Assembly: GCF_000568255.1 (NCBI RefSeq)
Contig: NZ_KK037166.1
Coordinates: forward strand, 4,553,898-4,617,897
DNA: 64,000 bases
Direction: 5' to 3'
Origin: Kutzneria sp. 744
GTDB lineage: Bacteria; Actinomycetota; Actinomycetes; Mycobacteriales; Pseudonocardiaceae
Shown: positions 19,901-62,975 of the stretch, piece after piece
Layout: every line of letters starts with the position of its first letter
How positions within the stretch are numbered: the first letter of the stretch is position 1
The notes under the pieces: generated by a model
What the model saw: only the letters and a program-made list of their open reading frames with translations
Told to the model about the DNA's origin: nothing
Database searches by the model: none
Position numbers and translations under genes: made by a program

Positions 19901-20076
19901 TCGGTTGTCCTCGATGCCAACAGCATGGCTGCCAGCGAGTCGCCGCCGAGTTGGACGAAGCTGCGGGCGGGCGGCAGGCCGTCGCCGCTCGGAGCGCCCA
20001 ACACCTCGCGCGCCAACTCGTTCAGGCGCGCTAGCACCGCATTCTCGGGTTCACCCGATCTGGCGCGCGGGCTCAT
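16945..20076 (-). CDS. NRPS, T-C-A (valine-like A domain, no downstream carrier)
   Basis: The protein has 1043 residues with domains in the order carrier, condensation, adenylation. The carrier has the phosphopantetheine serine in LGGDSLAAM (~residue 46). In the C domain (~85-500) the catalytic motif reads HHMLLDA, with Ala in place of the last Gly. The A domain (~515-1040) has TSGSTGSPKG and NGKVDRKAL. The ten specificity residues read by eye are D-A-I-W-L-G-G-T-F-K, close to valine codes. The protein stops right after the A domain, so the activated residue must go to a carrier on another protein, most simply the N-terminal T of the T-C-T protein at 60814-62565. The ATG at 20076 follows GAGGGAGGC and overlaps the transporter gene by 26 bp. 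This is the last gene of operon 2. Confidence 0.92.
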   Translation of the reverse strand: MSPRARSGEPENAVLARLNELAREVLGAPSGDGLPPARSFVQLGGDSLAAMLLASRTTEDVGRDLSVSALLGPEPLAAVLERAARGRGVPTAAVTAGAALDDVPTVSQRGMWADEQVVGEPVYNLVFSAVLEGELEVGRLESALVATARRHDGLRTCFPTADGDLRRLVLADRTPDLERVRVPAAGFAQHVRRVVRRRGRLPFAVGGLPPLDFVLVTGGPRQNVLLLVTHHMLLDAWSVGLVLREVFARYAGGMGDQADPPQPDVLVAHQHALRESGLWGEQLSFWREQLAEVPLTVDLPTDRIRSRVRDGEGVQLPFELPAETVDAVRQHAARLGVTPFAHLLTAYGLLASRYTGQRRFLIGVPTTGRPTKALRELVAQCAAVVPVVIDVDDDRTTDEQIRAVQQSLGRSLDHADVPSVELVHSLGIGADAGRNPLVQLVCNGYSDLVDRELLAGGLRVRVTEEHNGRAPMDLSLVFQRTDEKITGFLEFATAVWTREEAARFLDDLVATCEQLTTATRVVEVRGISTGSAALLDALASPTPDNPVDCLDTAFLAQAARTPDAIAVREGDDRLTYRELAAASAAQAVLLRKAGVRPGDVVVVDLPRSIDEVVAVLGVVRAGAAYLGVDERMPERRKAEILRRARPAAAVSHAAAVFDLPVVVCRWRDWLHDDAPEPHVVPQDPERVAFLSFTSGSTGSPKGVLVPHRGIARLVAGADYVDCGPGTRFLRFAPLAFDASTIDLWFPLLGGGCVEVHPPGVPSPAELGRFVVERGVTALWLTSGLFRLLAEFAPGSLAQVRYLLTGGDVVPSEHVRRVLEANPALTVVSGYGPTENSTFTTVHVVDSPEDVVDPLPIGLPVRGTSVHVLDERGLPVPPGAVGELYTGGTGLAVGYLGDQEATGLAFGYWGANPSERLYRTGDLVRLDAQGRLRFLSRRDDQVKVGGFRVEPAEIRQVVIDHPDVADAVVLPFEGAGGHKQLLGAYVPRTPDDDLGERLTEFTGARLPEYMVPARWLRVQTLPVTANGKVDRKALVDAALGAARR

Positions 20077-20986
20077 GGCCGCCTCCCTCCCTCTGTTCGG
20101 CGCGTTTCCGGGCACGCGCGGCCTGCCCATCGAGCACCGCCACCGCCGAGCCGCACAGCATCACCACTGCGCCGACGGCCTGCACGGCGGACACCGACTC
20201 GCCCAGAAAGACAGTCGCGAACACCGCGCCGAAGACCGGGACGAGGAACGTCGCGACCGACGCGGTAGCGGCCCCGACATCGCGGATGGACGAGTAGTAC
20301 AGGAGACCAGCCAGGCAGGTGGGCCCGAGTGTCAGGAAGACCATGTTGAACCAGAACCCGGCCGACAACGCGGACCAGGTGACCTGGGTTGCGGCGGGCG
20401 CCGACAACAACAGCAGTGGCACCGCGCCCGCGGCCAGACCGTACGCGGTGGCGTGCAGGGGCGGTGTGCCGGCCAGGGCACGCTGGCCCAGGAGAGTGTA
20501 GCCGGACCAGATGGCCGCGCACACCAGGAACACGAGGTCACCGAGCAACCGGTCGGTACCGGCGGACGGCCCCTCGAACGCGCCAACGGCGAACAACGCC
20601 GTGCCGGCCAAGGCCGAGCACAACGCCACGACCCGTCGGCGCGACAGCCCCTGCCCACCGGTCACGGCCGACACGGCCGCCGTGATCAACGGACTCAGGC
20701 CGGGCACGATCACGCTGGCGTCGACCGCCGGTGCGAGACTCAGCCCCCAGAAGAACAGCGCGTTGTAGACGAAGACACCCAACAGCCCGGCCAGTGCCGA
20801 GCTCACTCGGGCGACCGGGGTGGCCGTCCGGGTGAACCTGACGACGAGGAGCATGATCACCGCCCCCGCCGCGAACCGGATCGCTGCCACCACCTCAAAC
20901 GGGGCGGCGCCAACCGCCCACTTGGAACTGGCCGTCGCGCTGCCCCACAGCGCCGTCGCGAGGAGCAGGACCAGCAAGGCACGCAC
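20051..20986 (-). CDS. EamA/DMT-family transporter
   Basis: This 311-residue, ten-helix membrane protein has two EamA repeats (about 1-135 and 150-285; for example LWGSATASSKWAVGAAPFEV and later FLVPVFGAVFATVFLGE). Members export amino acids or other small metabolites. In operon 2 it could export the finished peptide, a precursor or an unused amino acid; no substrate can be read. The GTG at 20986 lies 6 bp after the SHMT-like stop. Confidence 0.88.
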   Translation of the reverse strand: MRALLVLLLATALWGSATASSKWAVGAAPFEVVAAIRFAAGAVIMLLVVRFTRTATPVARVSSALAGLLGVFVYNALFFWGLSLAPAVDASVIVPGLSPLITAAVSAVTGGQGLSRRRVVALCSALAGTALFAVGAFEGPSAGTDRLLGDLVFLVCAAIWSGYTLLGQRALAGTPPLHATAYGLAAGAVPLLLLSAPAATQVTWSALSAGFWFNMVFLTLGPTCLAGLLYYSSIRDVGAATASVATFLVPVFGAVFATVFLGESVSAVQAVGAVVMLCGSAVAVLDGQAARARKRAEQREGGGHEPARQIG

Positions 20987-20992
20987 CCCGGG

Positions 20993-22363
20993 TCACCCGG
21001 CCTTGCTCAGCACGGACGCGGGCACCGGGTAGCCAGGCACGGGGAAGCGGGCGCAGAGGTCCGCCACCGCCGCGCGAGTGGCGTCCCGGACCGCCTCGGG
21101 CAGGTGGTGGCGAGGACCATCCGCTCGCACCGCGCGCAGCACATCGTCGAGCAACCGCGCGCACGCACGCGCCTGAGTGGCGCCCATCCCGCGCAGGGCG
21201 ACGCTGTTGACGCCCAGCCGCAGTCCACTCGTTACCAGTGCGGGCTTGGTGTCGCCAGGAACTCGGTTCTTGTTCACCACGATGCCGCATTCCTGCAACG
21301 CCCGTTCCGCCATCACCCCGGTGATGCCCAGCGGCGTGAGGTCCAACAGCACGATGTGGTTGTCGGTGCCTCCGGAGACGACCGTGTGGCCCTTCGACGC
21401 CAACTCGTCGGCAAGCACCCGCGACAACGCCACCACGCGGCCCATGGTGGCGCGGAAGTCGTCGCCCGCCGCGATGGCCAGGGCGCGGGCCTTTGCTGCG
21501 ATCACGTTCAACGCGGGAGCGCCCTGGTAGAACGGGAACACCGTCCGCTGCAGGAAGTCCCCCAGCGTGCCCGAGCCGATGGGCGCGGCCCCGTCGGCGT
21601 CCTCGCCGCTCAGGATGAGGCCACCACGCGGCCCGTAGAGTTGCTTGTGTGTGCAGCACGTCGTGATGTGGGCGTGGTCGATCGGGTTGGGATGGTGTCC
21701 GGTCACGACCAGGCCGGCGGTATGCGAGATGTCGGCCAGCAGGTACGCCCCCGTCTGGTCGGCGATTTCCCGGAAGCGCCTGAAGTCGATGGTCCGGGAG
21801 TACGCGGTGGCGCCGCACACGATGACCCGTGGCCGGTGCCGCGCGGCGAGTTCGGCGACCTCGTCGTAGTCGAGCAGTCCAGTCTCGGTCAGCCCGTACC
21901 CCACCGCGTGGAAGTACCTGCCGGCGTAGGCGGCGGGGCTTCCGTGCGTGAGGTGGCCGCCGCTGTCCAGAGCCATTCCGAGCATCGTGTCGCCGGGACG
22001 CATCAGCGCCGAGAGCACCGCGTAGTTGGCCGTCGTCGCCGAGTGCGGCTGGACGTTCGCGTACCGCGCGCCGAACAGCCTCCTCGCCCGGTCGACCGCC
22101 AGCCGCTCGATGTCGTCCACCGCCTCGCAGCCGGCGTGGTAGCGACGGCCCGGGTACCCCTCGGCCGTCACGTTGACCGCGACGCTCGCCTGGCTGGCGA
22201 GAACGGAGGGGTCGACGACGCTGGACGAGGCCACGAGCGAGAGCGTGCCGGCCTGCCTGCGCTGCTCCGCGAGCATCGCGTCCCACAGATCCGGATCTTC
22301 TAGTGCGAGCTTGCTCAGACCGCCCTGCACCAACGCGTGTAACGGGTCGTCGATCATGATCAC
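20993..22363 (-). CDS. divergent SHMT homologue lacking the catalytic Glu (possible transaldolase or alpha-alkylserine synthase)
   Basis: The 456-residue protein matches PLP-dependent serine hydroxymethyltransferase along its length. The PLP lysine is in THKQLYGPRGG (~242), and AEGYPGRR and the C-terminal TSGLRLGVNSVALRGMG region are present. Key tetrahydrofolate-reaction residues differ. The usual LIASEN is LVASSS, so the catalytic Glu (E57 in E. coli) is Ser47, and the tyrosine pair RYYGGCE is RYHAGCE. Related SHMT-fold enzymes in antibiotic clusters include threonine transaldolases and alpha-methylserine synthases. It is translationally coupled (GTGA overlap) to the A-T-TE protein upstream, which suggests that it makes the residue that protein activates. 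An internal ATG at 22357 is the alternative start. Confidence 0.85.
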   Translation of the reverse strand: MIMIDDPLHALVQGGLSKLALEDPDLWDAMLAEQRRQAGTLSLVASSSVVDPSVLASQASVAVNVTAEGYPGRRYHAGCEAVDDIERLAVDRARRLFGARYANVQPHSATTANYAVLSALMRPGDTMLGMALDSGGHLTHGSPAAYAGRYFHAVGYGLTETGLLDYDEVAELAARHRPRVIVCGATAYSRTIDFRRFREIADQTGAYLLADISHTAGLVVTGHHPNPIDHAHITTCCTHKQLYGPRGGLILSGEDADGAAPIGSGTLGDFLQRTVFPFYQGAPALNVIAAKARALAIAAGDDFRATMGRVVALSRVLADELASKGHTVVSGGTDNHIVLLDLTPLGITGVMAERALQECGIVVNKNRVPGDTKPALVTSGLRLGVNSVALRGMGATQARACARLLDDVLRAVRADGPRHHLPEAVRDATRAAVADLCARFPVPGYPVPASVLSKAG

Positions 22364-25300
22364 CCCTGTCCCGGCGCGGGCAGAGCACGCCGAATGATCG
22401 CCGCCAGTTCGGCGGCGCGGTCCTTGACGAAGTAGTGGCCCGCGTTCGCGATCACCATCGACTCGACCGAGTCGAAGTGCCGCAGCCAGCGGGTGTGGGT
22501 GGTGAGGTGATCAGCGGTGGTCAAGTCGTCGGCGCCGAACACGCACTGCGCGGGCGTCACCAGCGGCTCTGGTTCCTCGCGTGTCGCCGTCAGATGGAAC
22601 AAGGCTGCCTGCCGCATGTCGTGCCGGGCCGCGTGGAGGATAGGCTCGACTTCCGACCACCCCAGGTCGCCGGCGAAGCCGCCTATTTCCCGCAAAGCGC
22701 CGTACAACTCCCGGTCCGTCATCGCGCGCTCCTCCCTCAGGACCGCACCAGGGTCCGCCGGCGGCACCGCGGCGCCGAGGAACACGTGCCGCAGGTCGAC
22801 GCCGCGTTTTTCCAGTTCGCGAGCGAGCGCCACCGCAAGCGCCGTGCCAGCGGAATGCCCGTACACCATCACGGGTCCGGTGACCGAGGCCGCCAACTCC
22901 TCGGCGCATCGCCGCGCGGCCTCGTCGAACGAAAGCAACGGATCGCGATCACCCGGGTCGTGGCCGGGAAGAGCGATGGCCCGCAACTCGACGGTGGCGG
23001 GGAGGTGCGCGGCGAGCCGTTGGTAGCTGACCGCATTGCCGCCGCTGTGCGGCGCGCAGACGAGGGTGACGGCGGCGGCGGCGCTGCCCGGCGTCAGCCG
23101 ATGGATTAAGCCGCGGCGCCGGTCGGATCGACGAACCACGTCGGCGAGCGCGGCCACCGTGCGGTGGGTAAGCAGTTCGACGACCGGCACCGTCCGATCG
23201 ATGGCGGTCATCGCCTTGATTGCCGTGAACGAATCCCCGCCAAGGCGAAAGAAGTCGGAATCCGCGTTGAGCGGGCCGGTGCCCAGGATCTCCTGCCACA
23301 CCAACGCTATCCGGCGCTGCGTGTCGTCGGTCAGCGGTTCGCCGGCGTCGGAGACGAGCTCGACTTCGCTCAGCCCGCGCCGGTCGACCTTCCCGTTCGG
23401 CGTGGTCGGGAAACGGTCGACCATGGCGATGACACCGGGCACCATATGCTGCGGCAACCGTTCGGCGAGGAATGCTCGCAGAACCGGATCGGACGGTGTG
23501 GCGTCGACCGCTCGGGGGCGTACGAAGGCGGCCAGAGTAGTGTTCCCGCGCTGACCGCGGGCGACGACAACAGCGTCGAGCACGTCCGGGTGTCGGCGCA
23601 GCGCGGCCTCCACCTCGCCCGTCTCGATCCGCATGCCGTGCACCTTGACCTGGAAGTCAATACGCCCGAGCAGTTCGATCACCCCGTCGGGGCGGAAGCG
23701 GGCCAGATCACCGGTCTTGTAGAGGCGCTCGCGCAGTCCCGGGGCGAGTTCGCGCTCAACGAACCGCTCGGCGGTGAGCTCGGCGCGGTTGAGGTAACCC
23801 AGCGCCAGGCCCACTCCCGCCAGGTGCAGTTCGCCCGGCACGCCGACCGGAACCGGCTGCATCGCGGCATCCAGCACATAGGCGCGTTGGTTGGCCATCG
23901 GCCGCCCGTAGGGAATGCTGGCCCAGGCCGGGTTCACCTCGGCAACCGGGAAGATGATGGAGTCCATGGACGCCTCCGTCGCCCCTCCCAGGCTGATGAA
24001 CTCCAGATCTGACGTCACCGCGCGCAACCGATCGGGCAGTGTCACCGCGATCCAGTCGCCGCCGAGCAGCGCGAGCCGCAACGGCAGCGGTCCGCCGCCG
24101 TCCCGCTCCACCGCGTCGAGCAGCAGTTCGAGCAGGGCCGGCGCGGAGTGCCAGACGGTGACGCGATGCTCGCGCAGCAGCCGTGTCCACAGCGCCGGGT
24201 CGCGAGCGGCTTCCCGCGCGGGCATGACCACCGTCGCGCCGGCCGCCAGCGTGCCCAGCAAGTCGTATACCGACATGTCGAAGCTCGCTGACGACACCGC
24301 CAGGACGCTGTCACCCGGCCCGATCCCGAAGCGGGAGTTGAAATCGATGAAGTTGTTCACCGCGCCGCGGTGCCGCAACACGATTCCCTTGGGCTTGCCC
24401 GTCGAGCCGGAGGTGTAGATGACGTACGCGGGCTGCTCAGGGTCGTGGTCCGCCGCGAAGGGAACCGGGAGCGGGGCAGCGGCCCGCAGATCATCCAGCG
24501 GCACCGTCCGCACCCCCTCCCAGCGTCCGAGGAAGTCGTGGTCGGTGAGCACGGCGCTCGCCACGGAATCGGTGACCATGAACTCAAGCCGGTCGGCCGG
24601 GTAGTCCGGGTCCAGCGGCAGGTATGCCGCGCCCGCTTTCAACACCGCCAGCACCGCGGCGGCCTGCTCGATCGACCGGTGCAGGCAGATGCCGACGATG
24701 TCGCCGTGTCCGAGGCCCATGTCGCGCAAATGGTGGGCGAAATGGTCGGCAAGCCGGTCCAACTGCGCGTAGGAGAACCGTTCGGCGCCACAAGCGATCG
24801 CGACGTCGTCGCCGTGCTCGGCCGCGCGCCGTTCGAACAGCTCGTGCAAGCACTTGTCCGGGAACGGTTGGCCGGTGTCGTTCCACTCCAACAGCATCCG
24901 CTGACGCTCCACATCGCCGAGCAGGCGCAGCTCGGTCACCGGGGTCGTCGGCGCGGCGATGGCCGAGGCGAGCAGCTCTCGGAAGTGCCCGGCCAGCCGC
25001 TCGACGGCGCCGCGCTCGAACAGCGCCTCCCGATAGGTGATGACGTCCTTGTCCGGGGCGAACACCAGGTCGGCCGGGTCCGCCACGGGTCCGCCGAGGA
25101 CCAGCGACACCCTGGTGCGCGGCCCATCCCACGCGTCGGCATCCCGGGACATGTGGGTGATCCGGTTCGGTACCTCGTCGAAGATGGGTGTGCCGGACAG
25201 GTCAACGCGGAGGAGGGTCTCTTCGTCCGGAATGGACAGCTCGATGTCAACGCTTTCCTGTGCGTTGTACCGGTATAACAGGACCGCCAACGCCGCAGCG

Positions 25301-25467
25301 ACCACGCGCCACGGCGGCAGCCGCCTCGTTGTGGAGAAGACGTGTAACCGCTCGACCAGGTCCGCCGGGAGCCTCAGCGACGTGGAAGCGCGGCGCGCGT
25401 CGGTCGGGTCGGCCGCCACCACGCCTATCGGGAAGTCGAGCAGCGCTTGACCCTCGTGTTCGACCAC
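22360..25467 (-). CDS. stand-alone NRPS A-T-TE protein with C-domain remnant
   Basis: The protein has 1035 residues. Residues 1-215 resemble the C-terminal part of a condensation domain but lack HHxxxDG. The A domain (~215-720) has TSGSTGKPKG and a specificity reading D-M-Y-H-L-G-L-M-D-K; the domain body (LALLGGDW, SLGGATEAS) is of the Ser/Cys-like subgroup. A carrier follows with LGGDSFTAI (Ser ~741). A thioesterase at ~790-1035 has GHSAG, GADD and GHYF. Free-standing A-T proteins usually hold an amino acid for modification. The TE could release the product or proofread. The GTG at 25467 was chosen because GAGAGGAG precedes it by about 10 bp; an in-frame GTG at 25509 is less likely. It heads operon 2 and is coupled to the SHMT-like gene. 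Confidence 0.92.
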   Translation of the reverse strand: MVEHEGQALLDFPIGVVAADPTDARRASTSLRLPADLVERLHVFSTTRRLPPWRVVAAALAVLLYRYNAQESVDIELSIPDEETLLRVDLSGTPIFDEVPNRITHMSRDADAWDGPRTRVSLVLGGPVADPADLVFAPDKDVITYREALFERGAVERLAGHFRELLASAIAAPTTPVTELRLLGDVERQRMLLEWNDTGQPFPDKCLHELFERRAAEHGDDVAIACGAERFSYAQLDRLADHFAHHLRDMGLGHGDIVGICLHRSIEQAAAVLAVLKAGAAYLPLDPDYPADRLEFMVTDSVASAVLTDHDFLGRWEGVRTVPLDDLRAAAPLPVPFAADHDPEQPAYVIYTSGSTGKPKGIVLRHRGAVNNFIDFNSRFGIGPGDSVLAVSSASFDMSVYDLLGTLAAGATVVMPAREAARDPALWTRLLREHRVTVWHSAPALLELLLDAVERDGGGPLPLRLALLGGDWIAVTLPDRLRAVTSDLEFISLGGATEASMDSIIFPVAEVNPAWASIPYGRPMANQRAYVLDAAMQPVPVGVPGELHLAGVGLALGYLNRAELTAERFVERELAPGLRERLYKTGDLARFRPDGVIELLGRIDFQVKVHGMRIETGEVEAALRRHPDVLDAVVVARGQRGNTTLAAFVRPRAVDATPSDPVLRAFLAERLPQHMVPGVIAMVDRFPTTPNGKVDRRGLSEVELVSDAGEPLTDDTQRRIALVWQEILGTGPLNADSDFFRLGGDSFTAIKAMTAIDRTVPVVELLTHRTVAALADVVRRSDRRRGLIHRLTPGSAAAAVTLVCAPHSGGNAVSYQRLAAHLPATVELRAIALPGHDPGDRDPLLSFDEAARRCAEELAASVTGPVMVYGHSAGTALAVALARELEKRGVDLRHVFLGAAVPPADPGAVLREERAMTDRELYGALREIGGFAGDLGWSEVEPILHAARHDMRQAALFHLTATREEPEPLVTPAQCVFGADDLTTADHLTTHTRWLRHFDSVESMVIANAGHYFVKDRAAELAAIIRRALPAPGQG

Positions 25468-25524
25468 GGTGTTCGATCTCCTCTCAGCTGCGCCGGCGAA
25501 GCCGGCCACACCACTCGGTGGTGG

Positions 25525-28611: not shown

Positions 28612-28724
28612 GCCGTTCGCGGCTGCACGAAATTCAGCGGGACCGGGGACACAGTTCGACCAGCAGGCGATCTTCCTGGTGAACGCCCGATCCGAGCGAC
28701 GGACGGCTCGATCAACTTGGCAGG

Positions 28725-30829: not shown

Positions 30830-30830
30830 G

Positions 30831-33131: not shown

Positions 33132-35333
33132 TCACTCCGTCCTCTCCAGGCCGGCGGCGACCGCGCGGACCGTGGAAGCTCGATAGAGGTTCGCCATAAC
33201 GACCGCCGGCATTCCGGCCGCCCTCATGGCGGTGCTGATCCGGACCGCGTACATCGAGTTCCCGCCGAGCTCGAAGAAGTCGTCGTCCGGCCCGACGGCC
33301 ACGCCGAGCACGTCGCTCCAGATCCGCCGCAGCCGGCCCACGAGGTCGTCCTCTCCACCTGAGATCCTGGCTGGCCGGAAGCGGGGCTGCGGTAGCCGGA
33401 CGATGTCCAGTTTCCCGTTCGGTGTCAGGGGGAGCTCGGCCACCGGGGTAACCGTGGCGGGAACCATGTAGTCCGGAAGCAGCCGGGCGACCCGGTCCCG
33501 GATGCCCGCCGCGGCCTCGTCGGCCAGCACGACGTACGCGTCGATCCGGGCCGTCGCCGGATCGGCCGGATCGCTCCGACGCACGACCGCGGCGGCGGCA
33601 CGCACGCGAGTATCCTCGAGCAGGGCCGCACGGATCTCGCCGAGTTCGACGCGGAATCCACGGATCTTGACCTGGTGGTCCGCGCGGCCCAGATGGTCCA
33701 AGGTCCCGTCGGGACGCAGCCGCCCGAGGTCGCCACTGCGGTACTGCAACCCACCGGTGTACGGGTCAGGCCGGAACCGTTGCGAGGTCAGCTCTTCCTG
33801 GCCGAGGTAGCCGGCAGCGACGCCTGCGCCACCCACGTGGATCTCACCGACGACGCCGGGCGGCACCAGCCGGCCCGCTTGATCGAGCACGTAGAAGTGC
33901 CAGCCGGGCAGGGCAGTACCGACGCAGCGGGTCGCAGTCTCGGCCAGTTCACGGGTGACCGTCAGGTGGGAGGCGTGCACGGTGGTCTCCGTGATGCCAT
34001 ACATGTTCACCATCCGGCACTGCGGGTGCCGGTCGAACCATGGCAGCAGCGCGCGGGTGTCCAGCGGTTCCCCGGCGAAGATCGCCAGCCGGGGGTCGAC
34101 CAGCCCGTGGTCGACCCCCAGCAGTTGGGTGAAGGCCGATGGAGTCTGGCTGAGGACCGTGACCTGCTCGGCCACGAGCAGGTCACGGAAACGCTCGGGA
34201 TCACGAGACACGTCGTACGGCACCACGGCGAGTCGCCCGCCGGTGAGCAGACAGCCCCACATCTCGTACACCGACACGTCGAACGCGCCGGAGTGGAAGA
34301 AGCTCCACACATCGTGCGGGCCAAGGCCGAACAGGTCCCGAGTGGCGTCGACCAACGCGATCACGTTGCTGTGCGGGACAACAACGCCCTTGGGACGTCC
34401 AGTCGAGCCGGAGGTGTGGATGACATAGGCCGGTTCGGCCGGGTCGATTCGGGGACGAGTCGTCCGCGGTCGCGACGCGACGAGTTCGTCGACGGTCCGC
34501 GCGAGCATGGCGATGTCGGTCCGGTCGGTGATGACGAGCCGTACGCCGGCCCCTTCGAGGATGCGGGCTAACCGTCCGGCCGGATGCATCGGATCGACAG
34601 GCACGTAGGTGGCGCCCGCCTTCAGCACCGCCATCACGGCCACGACGAAGTCCGCTGACCTGTCGAGACACAACCCCACTCGGTCACCAACACGCACTCC
34701 GGCAGCCCACAGTCCGTCCGACAGCCGGGTCGACCACGTGTCCAGCTCGCGGTACGTCAGCGTGGCGGCCCCGTCAGACACGGCAACCGCGTCCGGTGTC
34801 CGCGCCGCAACGCGCGCGAATGCCTCGTGGAGGCACACACGGGAGGTAGCCAGCGGTTCCCGCGACCGGCCCAATGCGACGATCCGGCGCCGCTCGACGT
34901 CGTCCAGCAGGTCGATCTCCGCGACAGGGACCGACTGGACCTGCTGGTGCACGTGCGCGAGGTGACGCGCGAACTGCTCAACGATTTCGCGCGCGAAGTG
35001 GCTGCGTCGGTAGTCGAGCCGCAGGTGATCACTGTGGACGGAGACGGTCAACGGAAACGGGGATCCCTTGTCGCCGAAGAGCAGACCGGCGATGACCGGC
35101 TGGTCCGTCGGGACCGGCCGCAGCTCACCCAGCACGGCTGCGAGATCGACACTCACCGAGCCGTGGTCGGTGCCGACCACGACGGATTCCCGGCCCAAGT
35201 ACCGCCCGAGCGTGACGGCGAGGGCGCCCAACCAACTGGCCCGGTCACCGGTCGAGCAGTCCAGTCGCAACATGACGGTCGCCGCACCGGTCGCGCCGGG
35301 CTCGGGCAGCCCCCATTCCGGTGGGCCTAGCAC
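33132..35333 (-). CDS. stand-alone NRPS A-T didomain with C-domain remnant
   Basis: The protein has 733 residues. About 150 N-terminal residues resemble the last part of a condensation domain without HHxxxDG. The A domain (~165-640) has [10 protein letters not shown] and NGKLDIVRL, and a specificity reading D-V-Y-S-I-A-M-V-H-K that I cannot assign. The carrier has LGGNSMYAV (Ser ~690). The body (FDVSVYEMWG, LSQTPSAF) is like the A-T proteins that load Tyr, His or similar for P450 hydroxylation. The GTG at 35333 overlaps the thioesterase stop (GTGCTAG). The P450 gene follows directly, so this is probably a loading station for beta-hydroxylation. Confidence 0.92.
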   Translation of the reverse strand: MLGPPEWGLPEPGATGAATVMLRLDCSTGDRASWLGALAVTLGRYLGRESVVVGTDHGSVSVDLAAVLGELRPVPTDQPVIAGLLFGDKGSPFPLTVSVHSDHLRLDYRRSHFAREIVEQFARHLAHVHQQVQSVPVAEIDLLDDVERRRIVALGRSREPLATSRVCLHEAFARVAARTPDAVAVSDGAATLTYRELDTWSTRLSDGLWAAGVRVGDRVGLCLDRSADFVVAVMAVLKAGATYVPVDPMHPAGRLARILEGAGVRLVITDRTDIAMLARTVDELVASRPRTTRPRIDPAEPAYVIHTSGSTGRPKGVVVPHSNVIALVDATRDLFGLGPHDVWSFFHSGAFDVSVYEMWGCLLTGGRLAVVPYDVSRDPERFRDLLVAEQVTVLSQTPSAFTQLLGVDHGLVDPRLAIFAGEPLDTRALLPWFDRHPQCRMVNMYGITETTVHASHLTVTRELAETATRCVGTALPGWHFYVLDQAGRLVPPGVVGEIHVGGAGVAAGYLGQEELTSQRFRPDPYTGGLQYRSGDLGRLRPDGTLDHLGRADHQVKIRGFRVELGEIRAALLEDTRVRAAAAVVRRSDPADPATARIDAYVVLADEAAAGIRDRVARLLPDYMVPATVTPVAELPLTPNGKLDIVRLPQPRFRPARISGGEDDLVGRLRRIWSDVLGVAVGPDDDFFELGGNSMYAVRISTAMRAAGMPAVVMANLYRASTVRAVAAGLERTE

Positions 35334-36004
35334 GTCATCCGTCCTTCGTGGACAGTCTCGACGATCAGCCGCAGCAGTGGACCAGGATCCTGCGCGAGGT
35401 ACATGTGCCCACCGGGCATCTCGGCGACATCGCACCCGCAGGTGGTGAACGTCCGCCACGCGTCCACGTCGGCTGCGCCGGCCAACTCGTCATCTGCCCC
35501 CCGCACAACCGTGATCGGAACATCGACGTGACCGCCCGGGCTCGGGACGTAGTCCTCGTCCATCTGGAAGTCGGCGCGCAGCGCGGGCAGGAGCAAGTCC
35601 CTCATCTCCGGGTGGTCGAACGCCGGGTGGCGATATCCCGTCAACCGCTCCACCTCAGCGAGAAACTCGTCGTCCGGCAGCCCGGAGACTCGTGGCGCCC
35701 GGCGACCACCCGGCGGCGGCGTGCCGCTGACCACCAAGTGGAGCACCTCAGGCCCGAGCCGGCGGGCAATCTCGTAGGCCAGCACCCCACCCACACTATG
35801 TCCGAAAAGGACGATCGGACCGGTCATGTCGGCCGAGACGCTGTCCGCGGCCACATGCAGGTCCCCGTACGGCACCACGTCGATCAGCCGCTCCCTGCCG
35901 GGCAACGGAACCGGTTCGACCTCCAAGCCGTCGACCATCCCGGCCCACGCTCGGTAGAACGACGGCCCGGCGCCCGCGAACGGCAGACACACCAGCCGTG
36001 TCAT
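35327..36004 (-). CDS. type II thioesterase
   Basis: The 225-residue alpha/beta hydrolase has the nucleophile in FGHSVGG (Ser70), the acid in RGADDEL and the histidine in PGGHMYL, the usual triad of type II thioesterases that clear stalled or wrong acyl groups from carrier domains. It starts at 36004 by an ATGA overlap with the stop of the large NRPS, so it is translationally coupled to it. It might also release the hydroxylated residue from the neighbouring A-T protein. Confidence 0.93.
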
Positions 36005-45000: not shown

Positions 45001-45873
45001 CAGGGCGTCCGGGACGGCTTCGCCGCCCACGACGACCACGCGGGGCCGATGGTCGCCCTCGAATAGGCCATAGTCCATCAGCCGGCTGACGAACGACGGT
45101 GTGCTGTGCACGATGTCGATGCCCGCCTCGCGCACGTAGGCGACGTACGCCTGCGCGTCGTGGCGGACCCGGTCCGGGACGATGTGCAGTTCGTGGCCGG
45201 CGAGGAGTGCGAAGACATCGTAGAAAGACGCGTCGAAGGTCAGCACGGACGTCCAGCCCAGCCGCAGCGGGCCGCCGTCGGGACGGCTCGCTCCGGCCCG
45301 GAACAGCCGGCGGCGGTGGTGGTGCCACAACCCGGCCAGTGCCCGGTGGCTGACCCCAACCCCCTTGGGCACTCCGGTCGAGCCGGACGTGCAGATCACG
45401 TACGCGAGCTGGTCAGGGTGGACCGGACCGGTTTCGATGGGAGGAGTGGCCCCGTGCCCGGCCAGTAGGCCGGGCTCGTCAACGAGGACCAACTCGGTGT
45501 CCCCGATCTCCAGACCGGCGATGACCTCACTGGTGGTGACCAGCAGCGACGGCCGCATCTCGGCGAGCGTGGTCTCAATGCGTCGCCGGGGCTGGTCACG
45601 GTCGATCGGGAGGAACACGGCTCCGGTCTTCAGCACCGCGAACATCGCGACGAACGCACCCGCGGACCGGGGCAAGGCGACGGCGACGAGCTGTTCCGGC
45701 TGGGCGCCGTGGGCGAGCAACAAGCTCGACAGCTGTGCAGCCCGCGTGTCCAGCTCGGCGAACGTCACACGGTCCGGGCCGTCCACCACAGCGGTCGCCG
45801 CCGGTGTCGCACTGACCTGTGCCGCCAGCAGCGCGGCCATAGTGACCATGCCCGCCTCGTCTTGTCCGGTCAC
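36001..45873 (-). CDS. NRPS, A-T-C-A(MT)-T-C-A-T-TE (final three residues and release)
   Basis: The protein has about 3290 residues. It starts with an A domain (~15-520, reading D-A-Y-H-V-G-H-V-H-K, unassigned) and a T domain, so its first C domain is the one at the end of the preceding protein. C (~605-1045) is followed by an A domain reading D-P-F-L-W-G-I-L-C-K, which shares seven positions with dihydroxyphenylglycine codes. That A domain contains an N-methyltransferase insertion ([12 protein letters not shown], ~1586). T (GGHSLLATR), C (HHVAVDG, ~2160), an A domain reading D-A-Y-W-W-G-A-T-F-K (valine-like) and T follow. A thioesterase with GWSFGG (~3140) ends the protein and would hydrolyse or cyclise the product. 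No epimerisation domain is visible. The GTG at 45873 overlaps the upstream stop as GTGA; a GTG at 45879 is possible. Confidence 0.94.
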
Positions 45874-54800: not shown

Positions 54801-57800
54801 GCAGGTCCGTACCGAATACTGCCCGGACCCGGCTCAGCAGCCGGCTCACCAGCAGGGAGTGCCCGCCCAGCGCGAAGAACCCGTCGTCGGGCGCGACCGA
54901 CGGGATACCCAGCACCTCGGCGTACAGGCCACAGATGATCTCCACCCGCACGTCGCGCGGACCGCCGACGGGAGCCTCGGTCACCAGGGCAGGCAGGGCG
55001 GCTCGGTCCAGCTTGCCACTGACCTGCGACCTCGGCAGTTCGTCGAGGACGATGATGGCGGCGGGCACCAGGTTCGCGGGCAGCCGGTCGGCCACGTGGT
55101 CCCGCACCGCGTTGACGTTCAGGCCGGCTGCCACGGCGACCACGAAGCCGACCAAGACCGGGGTCCCGGCGGCGGACTCCCGTACGGCGACGGCGGCACG
55201 AGCCACATCCGGGTGACCGGCCAGCACAGCCTCGACCTCGCCCGGCTCAACCCGGACGCCGAGCAGCTGCACCTGGTCGTCGACCCGGCCGACGTAGTCG
55301 AGGGCACCACCTTCGGTCCATTTGGCGAGGTCACCAGTGCGGTACATTCGCGTGCCGGGCGGGCCGTAGGGGTCGGCAACGAACCGATCCGCGGTACGGC
55401 CCGGCTGCCGGTGATATCCGAGGGCGACGCCGGAACCCGCGATGTACAGTTCACCGGCCACACCGACGTCCACGGGTTCGAGGTCGTCATCGAACACGTA
55501 ACACCGGACTCCCGGCATCGGCCGGCCGATCAGCGGCTTCCCCGGCCCGACGAGCACCTGAGCGCACGCGTCCACAGTGGACTCCGTAGGGCCGTACATG
55601 TTCACGAACGTGACGTCGGAGTACCCGGCCAACCGCGCCCACAGCGACACAGATGTGGCCTCACCCCCCAGGAGGACAACCGCAGGCCTGCGCTCGCCGT
55701 CGAGCAGGCCGGCGTGCACCAGCTGGTCGACGTGCGACGGGGTGACGTCGATGACGTCGAGAGCACGGTCGGCGACGAACGCCGTGAACGCGTCCGGGTC
55801 GACCCGAGTCTCCTCGTCGACGATGTGCAGCTCGTGGCCGTGGAACAGCCACATGAACCCGTCCCAGGCGCCGTCGAACGACCACGACGCCACATGCGCC
55901 ACGCGAGCATGTCCGGTTGCTGCAAGCCGCACGACGTCCCGGTAGCCGGCAAACAGGTTCACCAGCGAGGCTTGGGTGACCACGACCCCCTTGGGCAGCC
56001 CAGTCGACCCAGAGGTGTAGGTGACGTAGGCGACCTGCCCCCGGCCAGAAGCCGCGGTCACCTCGGGTGCGACCGCGTCCGGCCCGAGCACTGGAATGTC
56101 CACACCGGACAACTTGGTAGCTGTCTCCGCGGTCGCGACGGCGAGCGTCACCCCAGCATCGGCGAGCACGTGTGCCGTCCGCGACGACGGCTGCGCCGGG
56201 TCGACCGCGACGTAGCCGGCGCCAGTCCGGAAGACCGCGAGCATCGCGACGACGAAGTCGGCCGTGCGCGGCAGGACCAGTCCCACCAGCGTTCCTGGCC
56301 GGGCACCGGCCCATCCGAGAGCATCGGCCAGCCGCCGGGAGGCTCGATCCAGGTCGGCGAAGGTGTGCGTGCTCGCGCCAGCGACCACGGCGACAGCATC
56401 GGGGGTGCGGGCGACCTGTGCGTCGAAAACCTCGATCATCGTGGACGGCCCGACGTCGATGGCCGTGTCGTTCCACTCGTCGAGGATCCGTGCGCGGGTC
56501 TGTCCGTCCAGCCGGGCCAGCCGCCGGACGGGTGCCTCTGGGTCGTCTACCACCGATTCCAGAGTCCTCACCAGCGAGCCGAGCAACCGGTCGATCGTCG
56601 CCGGGTCGAAAAGGGCCGCGTCGAAAAAAAACATCCGACCGGATCGTCCCGTCCGAGACCTGGATCAGGTCGACCGACAGGTCGAGTTCGGTTGCGCCTT
56701 GGCCGAGCGGCTCCACTGCGCTCCGCGCGCCGCCGAGCTCGAGGACGGGCGGGGTGCTGTTCTGCATGGTCAGCATGACCTGGAAGAGTGGGTGCCGGCC
56801 GGCCGAACGGACCGGGTTGAGCCGCTCCACCAAGCGTTCGAACGGCACGTCCTGCTGTGCGTGGACCGCCATGTCCTGCTCACGGACACGACCCAGCAAC
56901 TCCCGGAATGACAGCTCACCGTGCAGGTTGGTCCGCAACACGACCGTGTTGACGAAGCATCCGACCAATCCAGCCAAGGCGTCGTCGTCGCGACCGGCGA
57001 CCACGGTCCCAATCGGGATGTCCGTGCCGGCGCCGTACCGGTGCAACACGACCGCGAGCGCCGCGCGGAACACCATGAACAGTGTCGCCCCAGATTCCCT
57101 GGCCACGGTGGCAATCCGACGACAGAGGTCGGGTGCGAAGGTGTGCGAGACCGTTGCGGAGGAGAAGGCGCTGCGCGGGCGGTCCACCGGCAGTGGGAGC
57201 TCCGTGGGCAGGCTGTCCAATTCTCGTTCCCAGTAGGCCAGCTGCCGCGAGACCAGCGACTCCGGGTCGTCCTCGGAACCCAATCGGTCCCGTTGCCAGA
57301 GCGCGTAGTCGGCGAACTGGACCGGCAGCGGTGCCCACGTCGGAGGTCGGCCACCGCACCGGGCGCGGTAGGCGGTGCTCAGGTCGGTCGCGAGGATCCC
57401 CGCCGACCAGCCATCGCTCATCACATGGTGAGTCACCATGAGCAGCACGTGGGAATCCGGGCCAAGCGCGAACACCACGACAGCGAAGGCAGGTTCGGTG
57501 GCCAGGTCGAACCGGCGGTCGGCCGCGTCCCGCAGGGCGCCGGGCAGGCCGCCCTCGTCGATGTCGATGTGAGTCAGGGCAACCTCGACCGGGGGGTGGA
57601 CCCGCTGGCACGGCACGCCCTCCTCGATCGGGAAGGTCGTCCGCAGGATCTCGTGCCTGGCCACGACATCCGCGAGGGCGGCGCGCAAGCAGCCGAGGTC
57701 GAGTCCACCGACGATCCGGAAGGCGACCGACGAGTTACGCGGTCGTGCCTCGGGAGTGAGACCGTGGACGAACCACAACCCGTTCTGCCCCGCGGACAAC

Positions 57801-60784
57801 GGGATCCGGTCTGGTCGGACGAGCTGCCGCAACGGAACCCGCGCGGGTTCCGCGCTCTCCAGGGCGGCTGCCAAACCAGCCACGGTCGGGGTTGTGAAGA
57901 CCTGACGTAGATCGGTCTCTACCGCCAACGCCGACCGGATGCCCGCGACGAGCCGGCTCGCCAACAGGGAATGGCCGCCGAGTTCGAAGAAGTCGTCATG
58001 GGCGCCCACCGACTCGAGACCGAGCAGGTCGGCGAACAGGCCCGCCAGGGTCATCTCCCGCGTGGTCCTCGGCGCGACGCGGGCAGCGGCAGCGAAGTCC
58101 GGGGCGGGAAGAGCCTCGACGTCGATCTTCCCGTTGGCAGTGAGGGGAAACTCGTCGACCGAGACAATCGCAGTGGGCACGAGGTGGGCAGGCAACATCT
58201 GACGCAGGTAATCCCGCAACGAGGGCAACGGTTCGTCGCCATGCGGGAGGATGTAGCCGACGAGGAACTGGCCGCGCACGGTGTCGGTTCGCGTTGTCAC
58301 CACGGCCTGCCGGACACGGGCATGACCAGCCAGTGCGGCCTCGATCTCGCCGGGCTCCACGCGGACGCCGCGGATCTTCACCTGCGTGTCCGCCCTACCG
58401 ACGTACATCAGCTCGCCGTCGCCGGTGCGGCGCACCAGGTCGCCGGTGCGGTACATCCGACCGCCGGGGGCGGCCACGAACCGCACGGCCGTTTCCGCGG
58501 GAGCCCCTAGGTAGCCCCGCGCCAACCCCGCCCCGGTGAGGTACAACTCACCCACCACACCGACAGGCACTGGCCGCAGGTCACGGTCCAGCACCCGCAG
58601 GCCGGTGCCAGGCACACTGTCGCCGAGCGGTGGAACCCGTTGGCCTGTCACGGGTTCGCTGATCGTTGCCGTCACGGTCGACTCGGTCGGGCCGTAGGCG
58701 TTGTGCAGCCGGACATGTGCACCCCAGTAGCCGACGACTTCCGGGTCGCCCGACTCACCACCGATTACGACCACGCGCAGTGTCGGCAGTTTCCGCCGGG
58801 GCACGGTCGCCAGCACCTGCGGAGTCAACTGGATATGGGTAATCGCGTGGTCGGTCAGCTCGGCCGCGAGATCAGCGCTGACGAGCGCCCGACGGCGTGG
58901 CAGTACCAGGGTCGCCCCGCTGAGCAGTGCCATGCACATGTCTGCGATGGCCACGTCGAACGTCGGCGGCACCCAGTGCAGGACGCGTCCACCGGGGCCG
59001 ACCGGCAGGGCGGCGGGCAGCGCGGCGATACCGGCGTGCCGGACCAGGACCGGTTTCGGTTCTCCGGTGGAACCAGACGTGAAGATCAGATACGCGGAGT
59101 TGTCCAGCCGCAGTGACGGCTCGACCGGCTCGTCGGACCCGGACGCCCAGGCATCGTGCGGGTCAAGGACGGGCACGGCCAACCCGCTCTCCGGGCCGAC
59201 AAGCAGAACCGGACGAGCGATGGTCACCAGGGTCCGCAGCCGGTCCGCGGGCAGTTCGGGATCCAGCGGCAAGTAGACAGCGCCGGCCTTGAGCACGCCC
59301 AGAAACGTGACCACCGACTCGACCGATGGCTGGAGCAGAACGCCCACCACGTCCTCGGGACCGATCCCGCGCTCGGCCAACCTGCGGGCGATCCGATTGG
59401 CTCGGCGGTCCATCTCCGCGTAGTCAAGGCGGATTCCTTCGCTCTCCAGCGCGATGGCGTTGGGTGTGCGCGCCACCTGCCGCGCGAACAGGTCCGGCAG
59501 TGCCGCCGCGGCGAGTTCGGCCGGATCGTTGCCGGTCGGGTCGGGCAGGGTGAGCTCGCCGATCGCCCGGTCCGGGTGGTCGAGGGCCGCCATGGTGAGC
59601 GAGATCCAGTGCCGGGCCAGCCTGGCGATGGTGGTCTCGTCGAAGATTTCGGCGCGGTACTGCACCTCCAGCGACCAAGTCCGTCCAATGTGGACCTGCC
59701 AGCTGATATCGGTCTTGGCCGCGCGGCGGTCCAGAATCACCTCGGTCAGCCGGCACGCACCGAACCGGACGTCCCCGGCCAGCTCCTCCTCGACACCGAA
59801 CACGACCTGGGCCAGCGGCCCTCCGGCGCTGTTCCCGATGAGCCGCAACAGGTCCCGCAGCGGCACGTCCTGGTGAGCGGTCGCGGTCCAGATGGTCTCC
59901 GCAACCTGGGCGCGCAGTTCGTCGAACGCCAGGCTCGCGTCGACGTCCACGCGGATCGGCAGGACGCTGGTCAGCAGGCCGACCACCTGCTCCAGCTCCG
60001 GACGAACGCGCGCGCTCACGGCGGCGCCGATCAACAGGTCCGCCTGCGCCGTGTACCGGGACAGCGCCACGGCGAGCGACGCGAGCAGCGTGACGAACGG
60101 GCTCTTCTCGCCATAGCCGCCGTGCAGCGCAGCACGCATCCGTGCCGGCAGTTCGCACCGGAAGGTGCTGCCGACTGTGGCCGGTGACACCGGGCGTGCA
60201 CGGTCGGTGGGCAAGTCGAGCTCGACAGGCGCGCCCAGGAGCGCCGTCGTCCAGTAGTCGTCCGCGGCCGCGGAAGGCATGTCGGGACAAGGCACGACCG
60301 GCAGAGGCGTGTCGCCGGCGGTCGTGAGGTCGGTGTAGCGGGCGGCGACCGTACGCAGAAGCAGGCCCAGCGATGCACCGTCGAAAGCGATGTGGTGGGC
60401 GACAACCGCGAGCAACGCTCGCTCGTCCGGCAGCCTGGCCAGCCCGATGCGGATCGGGGGCTCGGCGGCCAGATCGATCGGACGTCGGGAAAGGTCCTCG
60501 GCCCAGGCGAGCGCATCGCTGTCGGTGTCGAAGTCTGCCTGGGCGAAGGGGAGCACAGGATCGGCGGACACAGTCCGGCGCGGTTCGCCGCCATCGTCGG
60601 CGAACCGCGAACGCAGCATCTCGTGCGCGGCCACGAACTCGGTCAGCGCCTGCCGGAGCAGATCGAGGTCGAGTCTCCCGTCGACCCAGTAACCGGTGGC
60701 CATGATGTACGCGGCCGTGCCCGGGTTGGCCTGCTCGAACAGCCAGACGTCTCGTTGAGCTTCGCCAATGCCACCGGTCCGCAT
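45870..60784 (-). CDS. NRPS, C-A-T-C-A-T-C-A(MT)-T-C-A-T-C (two apparent frameshifts)
   Basis: If one base is removed at each of two places the gene is a continuous 4970-residue NRPS. The places are the A8 run at 56624-56631 and the CCC at 48731-48733. Five C domains have HHIAFDG, HHVMSDG, HHIAADG, HHIAGDG and finally NHIAGDG. A-domain readings are D-V-A-Q-V-G-A-V-T-K; D-G-D-D-L-G-M-V-D-K (two acids in the pocket suggest a basic residue); D-V-F-S-V-A-I-V-Y-K with an inserted N-methyltransferase ([12 protein letters not shown] near 51830); and D-V-W-H-L-S-L-I-D-K, an exact serine code. The first A domain has [11 protein letters not shown], with Pro for the usual Gly. Four T domains carry GGHSLL. 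The terminal C domain serves the A domain opening the next protein. The ATG at 60784 was chosen, with a GTG two codons earlier possible. Confidence 0.9.
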
Positions 60785-60813
60785 TGTCACCGTTTCGCTC
60801 TTCCCGTCGCGAA

Positions 60814-62565
60814 TCACTGGAACGTCTTCTCGCTCGAAGCCACCACGCAAGCCAGCTCGGCCAGTGACGGATTGCGGAACACCGACAGCACGGACACCTT
60901 CGCACCGAGCGTCTGCTCGACCCGGGCGACCATTCGGACCACATCCAGGGATCGGCCACCCAGGTCGAAGAAATCAGCGGACGCGTCGATGCCGGCCGCG
61001 GGCCGATTGAGCACCTCGGCCCAGATCCCGGCCAGCGTGGCCGCCAGCTCACCGTCCGGCCCGGCCTCCTTCGGCCCGGCCTCCTTCGGCCCGGGTGTCG
61101 TACCCGCCTCAGTGGCCACCAATCGGGTGTGGACCAGCGGCGAGAGCCGCGTGGTGGGGTGTTCGGAGTCGGCGCAGACCTCGGCGAGCACCGCAAGGTA
61201 GTCCTGGACGAGCTGCTCGACTATCTCGCGGTCGAACAGGGCTGTTCGGAACGTGGCGGCGCCGCACAGACCGGGTCCGGTGTCGACCAGCCGAACCGAC
61301 AGGTCCATCTTGGATGTTCCGGTCGATATCTCCCGGGGCGCCACGGCCAGGTCGCCGAGCCGTAGCTCCGGATACGCGGTGTCGTACTCGAACAGCACGG
61401 TGGGCAGCCGGCCACCGGTGGCCCTGCGCTGCCGATCCTGTGCCCGCAGCGTGGCGAGCCTCAGTTCCTCGACCAACTCGGCGAACGTCGGATCGCCGGC
61501 GAACCCAGCCCGCAGCGCCACGACCGTCACGAATGTGCCCACAACGTCCCGGACGTCGGATTCGGCGCGACCGGCGAACGGCGACCCGACCACGATGTCC
61601 AGCCAGCTGGTGGCATGGTGCAGGACCAGCTGGAACGCGGCGAGCAACACCACGTAAGGCGTGGTCCCCAGCCTTCTGGCCACGTCCTGCACGGCGTCCG
61701 TGTCGGTGACCACGAACGAAACCTCGTCGCCCGCGGTGGTGACCTCAACCGGCCGGGCAGACCGGCCGGAGAGTGCGAGCGGCGGCCAGATTTCTGTGCC
61801 CTGCACCCGATCTTCCGCACCAGAAGGCCAAGAGATGTCCGCATAGGACTGCGCTGAAGTCGGCAGGATGTTGTTCCGGCAGGCAGCGGCGATCTCGTCG
61901 ATGACGATCCGCCAGGACCAGCCGTCGATCACCAAGTGGTGGCATACCAGCAGAAGCTCACGCCCGCCGGGCAGGTTCACCAACGCGGCGCGCACCAGCG
62001 GCCCACTGCCCTGGTCGAACGGTCGGCTCGCCGACTCGGCCAGCAGTGCCTCCGCGGTAGCCCGATCCGCCGCCTGAAACCGGCCCACGACCGGCACGTC
62101 CGCGTCGAACTGTTGCGTGGGCACACCGTCAGTGACCGTGAGCCTGGTGCGGAAGACTTCGTGCCGGTGCAGCACTTGGGACACCGCCCGGCACACGACG
62201 TCCTCGTCAACGGCCTCGGGCAGCGCGAACGCCAAGGCGACGTGATAAGCCGATGGGCCCGTGGCCAACTGCTCGGCAAGCCAGATCCGTTCCTGAGCGA
62301 GTGACAGCGGGACGGAGCGACGGGCACGCCGGGCCGCATCCACCTCGGCAGCCACCGCCCTGGTCGTGGCGGTCGAGAACAGCACGTCCAACGGGAGGTC
62401 CACGCCGAAGCGGTCGGCGATCCGACCTGCCGCGACGATGGCCAGCATCGATTGACCGCCGACTGCGAAAAAATTCGCATCCGGACTAATGTCCGCTATT
62501 TCCAAAACCTCGCACCAGATCGACGCGATCGCGCGTTCGGTCGACCCGGAAATGTCGTCCCCCAT
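60814..62565 (-). CDS. NRPS, T-C-T (no adenylation domain)
   Basis: This 583-residue protein has a carrier (VGGQSMLAI, Ser39), one condensation domain (~78-495, starting [13 protein letters not shown], with [12 protein letters not shown] near 209) and a second carrier (GGRSLDVVR, ~536). It has no A domain, so both carriers must be loaded by other proteins. The first can receive the residue activated by the T-C-A protein of operon 2. The second needs a trans-acting A domain such as the A-T or A-T-TE proteins. The C domain has an SWRI sequence after its active site, more usual in epimerisation domains, but its other motifs are those of C domains. The ATG at 62565 follows GAGAGGGG. It is the first gene of operon 1, and its stop lies 29 bp before the next start. 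Confidence 0.92.
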
Positions 62566-62765
62566 TTGGTGACCCCTCTCGACCTCGCCGCAGGACAGCC
62601 GTTCACCTGCTTCGGAGTGCTGCAGCCAATGTGCCATGGGCAGCGTGACAATCACGTGATAGCGCCGTGACGACTCACCGGATATGCCAGTACCGCACTG
62701 GACAAGACGGGGCGCCAAATCTATGAATTGATGGGCTTCATCCGCGGAAATACCTAGGGGGCGTG
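62566..62765. promoter_or_regulatory. divergent promoter region between NRPS operon 1 and mbtH-dpgC
   Basis: These 200 bp separate leftward operon 1 from rightward mbtH and must drive both. A perfect palindrome ATCACGTGAT lies at 62651-62660, flanked by GTGAC on either side (62645-62649 and 62667-62671). It is a candidate activator site. I could not identify a convincing -35/-10 pair. Confidence 0.5.
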
Positions 62766-62975
62766 ATGACCAATCCGTTCGAGGACGAGGACGGCCGTTA
62801 CCTGGTGCTGGTCAACGACGAGGGCCAGCACTCGCTCTGGCCGGTCCAGGTGGACGTGCCCGCGGGCTGGCGGACGGCGTTCGGCGAAGACACCCGCCAG
62901 GCGTGTCTGGACTACGTAACCGAGCACTGGCAGGACATGCGACCGCTCAGCCTGATCGAGGCCATGGACCACTGA
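62766..62975 (+). CDS. mbtH: MbtH-like protein
   Basis: The 69-residue protein has the whole MbtH signature: [33 protein letters not shown] and [14 protein letters not shown]. MbtH proteins bind A domains and are required for folding or activity of many of them. It is the only MbtH gene in the window, so it probably serves several or all of the ten A domains here. The ATG at 62766 follows AGGGGGCG; a GTG one codon before is also in frame. dpgC starts 30 bp downstream. Confidence 0.96.

Follow-up and report, generated by a model that had tools for sequence, protein, structure and literature searches.

A separately encoded NRPS protein of two carriers and one condensation domain, without an adenylation domain and putatively loaded in trans, in Kutzneria sp. 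744

The trans-loading of NRPS modules that lack an adenylation (A) domain is already established. One example comes from the kutzneride pathway, in which the two dioxygenases KtzO and KtzP act. A truncated A* domain is stated to be critical for the KtzN-mediated transfer of Glu (PMC10587159), whilst KtzN is assigned to a different unit in another review (PMC4147253). In capreomycin biosynthesis, CmnI is an A-less T-C protein that is charged in trans by CmnA-A1, as shown by MS, and the 13-member CmnI/VioI group shares 52.5-99.5% identity (PMC12400406). Similarly, the last module of SyrE in syringomycin (partnered by SyrB1), along with modules of ramoplanin and enduracidin, are C-T arrangements without a (working) A domain that are trans-complemented by A-T proteins (PMC8949500). 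A separate protein consisting of one condensation (C) domain between two carriers (T) was not found among the open-licence papers listed by our searches.

Such a protein is encoded in the window considered herein, by which we mean the whole stretch of 64,000 nt that was analysed. With moderate confidence, we propose that this T-C-T protein is a free-standing, A-less and trans-loaded condensation module that heads the main assembly line, and that it passes its product to a protein beginning C-A-T-C.

The T-C-T gene and its surroundings

Amongst the NRPS genes of the main operon, that of T-C-T comes first (Table 1). Its coding sequence starts with an ATG at 62565, preceded by GAGAGGGG, a plausible ribosome-binding site, and stops with a TGA at 60816-60814, such that the gene limits given in the initial annotation are exact. 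That annotation had described a C domain flanked by two carriers with no A domain, and this architecture is upheld. Pfam detects Condensation (2.6e-58) and two PP-binding stretches (3.8e-31), with nothing else at E 0.001 and no AMP-binding domain when one was sought in the protein; likewise, profiles built from fetched domains read T, C and T, whilst the A-domain profile from the same source finds no match. The carrier serines and the HHxxxDG motif are intact. As the C and T2 profile matches are only some 30 residues apart, the linker between them could not accommodate an A domain, whole or vestigial, and its shortness, together with the one continuous frame, rules out an A domain that has been lost or frameshifted. 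GC content by codon position is 0.71/0.50/0.83, versus 0.74/0.50/0.84 in the neighbouring NRPS gene.

Table 1. Features of the T-C-T gene and the surrounding cluster (window numbering unless indicated)
Feature	Position	Strand	Basis
T-C-T NRPS protein, 583 aa, without A domain	60814..62565	-	ORF, Pfam, profiles, codon-position GC
Carrier T1, about residues 8-75, GGQS at 36-39	62341..62544	-	Profiles, motif
Condensation domain, about residues 83-477, LCL-like by profile, C6/C7 stretch shortened	61135..62319	-	Pfam, profiles, model
HHLVIDG active-site motif, residues 209-215, then WSWRI	61921..61941	-	Motif
Carrier T2, about residues 503-577, GGRS at 536-539	60835..61059	-	Pfam, profiles, motif
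GTGA overlap: T-C-T stop and likely GTG start of next NRPS gene	60814..60817	-	Sequence
Next NRPS gene, begins C-A-T-C; presumed acceptor of T2 product; first C also on long branch	55661..60817	-	ORF, Pfam, profiles, tree
Continuation of downstream NRPS domains across two apparent frameshifts	48703-56634; 45870-48728	-	Profiles
A-T protein, degenerate half-C N-terminus; candidate trans supplier	33132..35459	-	Profiles
A-T-TE protein, half-C N-terminus; candidate precursor supplier	22360..25509	-	Profiles
T-C-A protein, no T behind A; candidate loader of T1	16945..20130	-	Profiles
Divergent intergenic region, T-C-T to MbtH-like gene	62566..62765	.	Sequence
MbtH-like gene, first of divergent set	62766..62975	+	Pfam MbtH 6.8e-30
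Stand-alone A between two TauD dioxygenase genes, divergent operon beyond window	L001:4371-6101, about 67973-69703 in window numbering

In an alignment of 42 rows, comprising the T-C-T protein and 41 of the 102 available T-C or T-C-T stretches, all seven invariant columns are kept in the T-C-T protein, with G36 and S39 sitting in T1, and Q91, R139, H210, D214 and R333 in the C domain. The AlphaFold model (pLDDT 86.3, pTM 0.77) aligns with the PCP-C didomain 7kw2 at Z 39.8 and 2.3 A over 385 residues, and its central domain displays the two-lobe C fold alongside the HHxxxDG site; as modelled, the predicted C fold is intact. The C domain deviates from the standard form in its C4 motif, which is weak or degenerate, and in a C6/C7 stretch that is both degenerate and shortened.

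Upstream of T-C-T lies the gene for an MbtH-like partner, a proximity that we count in favour of a trans-loaded module. Next in this divergent set come a DpgC-like gene and, beyond the window, MFS, formyltransferase-like, TauD, A and TauD genes. The DpgC-like gene (window 63006 to L001:747, +) scores 398 bits, below the cut-off of 530, and the only PF00195 (type III PKS) match of the genome is some 2.4 Mb away from it, so that a standard dihydroxyphenylglycine route is not evident at the cluster. On the other side, the overlap of the T-C-T stop with the gene starting C-A-T-C means that a product bound to T2 would be placed to meet the first C domain of that next protein. From there the main line goes on through ORFs resembling one gene broken twice, and then through 36001-45879, which ends in TE. 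The breaks lie at window 56600-56660 and at about 48700, one of them at a run of eight T, and the frame changes leave the last profile positions of a C domain (395-443), as well as positions 1-91 versus 98-474 of an A domain, in different frames; these are either sequencing errors or real lesions.

Elsewhere in the cluster, window 27526-33124 harbours genes for keto-acid dehydrogenase-like E1 and E2 proteins, a class IV aminotransferase and a P450, which suggests a dedicated amino-acid precursor pathway. A serine hydroxymethyltransferase-like gene (window 20993-22363) adjoins that of the A-T-TE protein, and its product possibly makes an alpha-substituted or beta-hydroxy amino acid. The N-termini of the A-T and A-T-TE proteins resemble, weakly (25 and 45 bits), degenerate C-terminal halves of C domains without HHxxxDG. 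That these might be pieces split off from the T-C-T C domain was considered and set aside, as T-C-T is not among the matches listed for them. In ramoplanin, an N-terminal extension is described as required for trans-complementation (PMC8949500).

Subtype of the central condensation domain

Subtype profiles were built from 62 LCL, 16 DCL and 25 E rows, the last being 25 of the 33 members of the E clade in a 217-row tree, whilst the LCL and DCL rows carry labels that come from domain order, with three and one odd rows dropped, respectively; none of the labels, those of the E rows included, is experimental. Against these, the T-C-T C domain scores 264 bits for LCL, 117 for DCL and 95 for E; a mixed set of N-terminal C domains reaches 252 bits, near to the LCL value. 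Five held-out builds return 258-266 bits for LCL and 91-96 for E, a difference of +163 to +174. This same difference is at most -92 in 25/25 E rows, at least +106 in 62/62 LCL rows and at least 187 in 16/16 DCL rows, the T-C-T margin thus lying below every one of the DCL rows. Held-out classing was correct for all of the E (25/25) and DCL (16/16) rows and for 57/62 LCL rows, with the other five being called DCL.

The initial annotation had remarked that the SWRI following HHLVIDG recalls epimerisation domains, a likeness that is borne out by the distribution of the HHxxxD..SW-type motif: it occurs in 16 of the 25 E-clade rows, in none of the 70 T-C-A-context rows and, T-C-T included, in seven of the 192 rows outside the 25 E-clade rows. 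The C6/C7 stretch of T-C-T is, moreover, shortened as in E domains. The stereochemical role that was attached to this likeness is, however, weakened by the gap between the LCL and E profile scores, even if placement on the E side is not rejected by the tree tests that follow.

Both the 217-row FastTree and the 68-row IQ-TREE trees exclude the T-C-T C domain from the E clade, and in the latter it occupies a long branch (1.36 versus a median of 0.9). When its placement is constrained, with LCL and DCL groups that were chosen after the tree was seen, AU p values are 0.785 (LCL), 0.711 (E) and 0.246 (DCL), none of which is a rejection, and log-likelihoods relative to the free tree are +18.7, +11.5 and -13.7 log units beside LCL, E and DCL, respectively. 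Hence the phylogeny that had been called for gives LCL the best likelihood, approximately 7 log units above E, but leaves all three placements standing. With the free tree unresolved and AU rejecting none of them, the term LCL-like rests on the profiles and not on topology or motif; on that footing we favour an LCL-like condensation domain as the probable identity of the central domain. A starter or non-functional domain, which the initial annotation had considered fatal to its proposal, was not found in what is a weak test: the active-site residues are intact, and the mixed N-terminal C set scores 252 bits.

Comparison to chains of solved structures yields its best scores, 129-148 bits, for 7kvw, Txo2, TycC, Txo1 and DhbF, all of which are of PCP-C or C-A types, with the Txo2 C-A chain at 147. 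Lower scores are found for the PvdL PCP-E-C-A chain (104, best over its PCP-E end), LgrA (101), CmnI (89), GrsA PCP-E (63), AB3403 (60), EntF (45) and TycA E (30). The RzmA and CDA C1 chains, which we take to be starter C domains, score 28-32 bits, versus 45-148 for elongation-type chains. Because these scores scatter widely they are not a clean test of subtype, and no weight is placed upon them. The spacing from T to C1 in T-C-T is 52, a value that does not separate LCL from E; for dual domains it is 95-105, by the definition that the source itself uses (PMC10212144).

Candidate loaders and alternative readings

Given that the T-C-T protein has no A domain, trans-loading of its carriers, as proposed in the initial annotation, is required if the protein works. 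We envisage that both T1 and T2 would be charged from elsewhere in the cluster, most likely by the A domain of the T-C-A protein and by the carrier-less A domain of the divergent operon, whose residue may be modified by the two dioxygenases encoded beside it. The C domain would then join the aminoacyl or peptidyl group on T1 to the amino acid on T2, whereupon the next protein would receive the T2-bound product at its first C domain. The expected chemistry is ordinary peptide bond formation.

Two A domains of the cluster are carrier-less, those of the T-C-A protein and the stand-alone A, whilst in the main line all seven A domains have a T, as do the A-T and A-T-TE proteins. No T was found behind the A domain of the T-C-A protein, which ends right after A, and a T profile run on the frames of at least 60 aa in L001, the locus that holds the stand-alone A, gave no match. 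T-C-A followed by T-C-T thus resembles a module split between A and T, and the loading of T1 by T-C-A, as suggested in the initial annotation, is a candidate pairing. All four detached A proteins exceed the cut-off of TIGR01733 (amino-acid adenylation). From codes read by hand, the A domain of T-C-A (DAIWLGGTFK) is presumably Val-type and the stand-alone A (DLTKIGEVGK) presumably Asn-type.

Relatives of the stand-alone A were examined at six of 13 loci (L111-L116) and at L129, from four of the eight other genomes with a dioxygenase neighbour. In 7/7 of these A is fused to T, such that the carrier of the stand-alone A, missing here, is to be sought on another protein. The nearest relative (66%, L111) adjoins a strong dioxygenase relative (446 bits), and that at L129 is likewise beside one, whilst the other five present no clear case, having mostly a P450 nearby, or neither. 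A conserved cassette of dioxygenase and stand-alone-type A was therefore discarded, being clear at just one of six A relatives (L111) and one of five dioxygenase sites (L129). In both of these the TauD dioxygenase gene adjoins one encoding an unclassified N-domain followed by A-T (L111:7600-11817 in G028; L129:16219-19998 in G610). The TauD relative beside the window matches the GntD and VioC models.

The T-C-A and stand-alone A domains are equally good candidates for serving T1. That T1 or T2 is the missing carrier of the stand-alone A was not supported by T-domain likeness, as neither is similar to the T found in the relatives of that A domain; the pairing thus remains a guess, and the specific version in which T-C-A loads T1 and the stand-alone A loads T2 is rather more apt to be wrong than right. 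More tentatively than for the proposal itself, one might regard the head of this assembly line as being built from fully detached parts, with T-C-T the hub between T-C-A and the coupled C-A-T protein. This would involve three orphan carriers (the T of T-C-A, T1 and T2), served by two A domains that lack a carrier and perhaps by an A-T helper, with residue choice set by protein-protein pairing and not by covalent order. A bolder addition is that the E-like SW motif and the shortened C6/C7 may mark a C domain that itself acts on stereochemistry.

Other readings of the same evidence were weighed. In one of these, an A domain would charge its own module and, iteratively, T2 or both carriers as well; the first A of the C-A-T-C protein, whose gene overlaps that of T-C-T by GTGA, could be such an A domain. 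CmnI has been shown to be loaded in this trans-iterative way (PMC12400406), and the same is reported for SidD/SidC (PMC10192304), but in this cluster it would leave the two carrier-less A domains unemployed, and we hold it to be unlikely. Somewhat less probable again is that T1 carries a non-amino-acid or N-modified starter, in which case T-C-T would initiate the chain and T-C-A would work elsewhere. The leading position of T-C-T amongst the NRPS genes of the main operon, the formyltransferase-like gene in the divergent set and the high score of the mixed N-terminal C set (252 bits) would all suit such a role, whereas the fit of all four detached A proteins to the amino-acid adenylation model TIGR01733 argues against it; the low scores of the RzmA and CDA C1 chains do so only weakly, since the elongation-type EntF reaches just 45 bits.

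It is very improbable that the central domain is an epimerase or a dual C/E domain. The SW-type motif (16/25 E-clade versus 0/70 T-C-A-context domains), the shortened C6/C7, an E-side placement at p 0.711 and the PvdL chain, strongest over its PCP-E end (104 bits), are each in keeping with an epimerase, yet the LCL-over-E margin is +163 to +174 where all 25 E rows are negative, the LCL placement is some 7 log units above that beside E, and the TycA E chain scores 30 bits versus 147 for the Txo2 C-A chain. The T-to-C1 spacing of 52 is also distant from the 95-105 by which dual domains are defined in one source (PMC10212144), although it provides no separation of LCL from E. Hardly credible, finally, is a relic, or a hub of carriers with a C domain that does not catalyse: the long branch (1.36 versus a median of 0.9) and degenerate C4, C6 and C7 motifs point that way, but H209, H210, D214, R139 and R333 are kept, codon-position bias is like that of the neighbouring gene, the predicted fold is intact, and the gene both leads the operon and overlaps the next.

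If a trans-loaded T-C-T module is indeed what is encoded here, with both carriers charged in trans, it offers a small natural test bed for A-T partner choice and for the working of a C domain placed between two such carriers. This is of relevance to the engineering of NRPSs, which is usually constrained by the covalent order of A and T. Predictions from domain order would, on the same supposition of trans-charging, misread the product of this cluster.

Distribution and relation to described systems

With regard to its distribution, no T-C-T ortholog was found in 248 other genomes of the family at 1e-60, or in 393 other genomes of the class at 1e-55, few first-look candidates being scored per genome (five and three, respectively, in the rows shown). 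There is thus no homologous T-C-T to attest that the protein is conserved, which counts against our proposal. The best other matches within the genus are approximately 37% identical stretches of longer frames, and a collection search by exact peptide patterns similarly gave identities of at most 37% among the best 80 of 85 matches. The initial annotation had called the arrangement rare. As an exact frame it is, with one example amongst 155 C-containing frames, but a T-C-T order also lies within longer proteins in six others of these. The frames were collected by similarity to the T-C-T protein and many are cut by locus ends, so that 1/155 does not come from a random sample. In Micromonospora echinofusca, a 2434-residue frame (L047:8933-16234) reads C-T-C-T-C-T-C without any A, and its last C falls in the E clade.

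Amongst described systems, a T-C-T order with no A between is likewise seen in locillomycin [T-C-T-C-A-T-C] (PMC8949500), in aeruginosin AerG [C-A-PCP-C-PCP] (PMC10143770) and in bonsecamin BonC [A-PCP + C-PCP-TE] (PMC8400726), in each case fused to further domains. For T2 of BonC the authors propose that a peptide is received from another carrier, not an amino acid (PMC8400726). The modules of SyrE, ramoplanin and enduracidin are described as parts of larger proteins, and so differ from the separate T-C-T protein. Kutzneride KtzN is similar in that a stand-alone A serves an A-deficient module, and here, too, an A domain is encoded without a carrier; the acceptor in that system, however, keeps an A remnant where T-C-T has none, and the residue there is Glu, whilst the code of the stand-alone A here is, by our hand reading, presumably Asn-like. 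Of the 13-member group, CmnI alone was compared, its chain scoring 89 bits against T-C-T by phmmer, at 26-27% identity in structure alignments. CmnI is a T-C protein with one carrier, in contrast to the two of T-C-T, but CmnI and VioI, of capreomycin and viomycin, resemble it in being small, separately encoded and A-less proteins that start T-C, and the fold of CmnI (9uay) is similar to the T-C-T model at Z 34.3.
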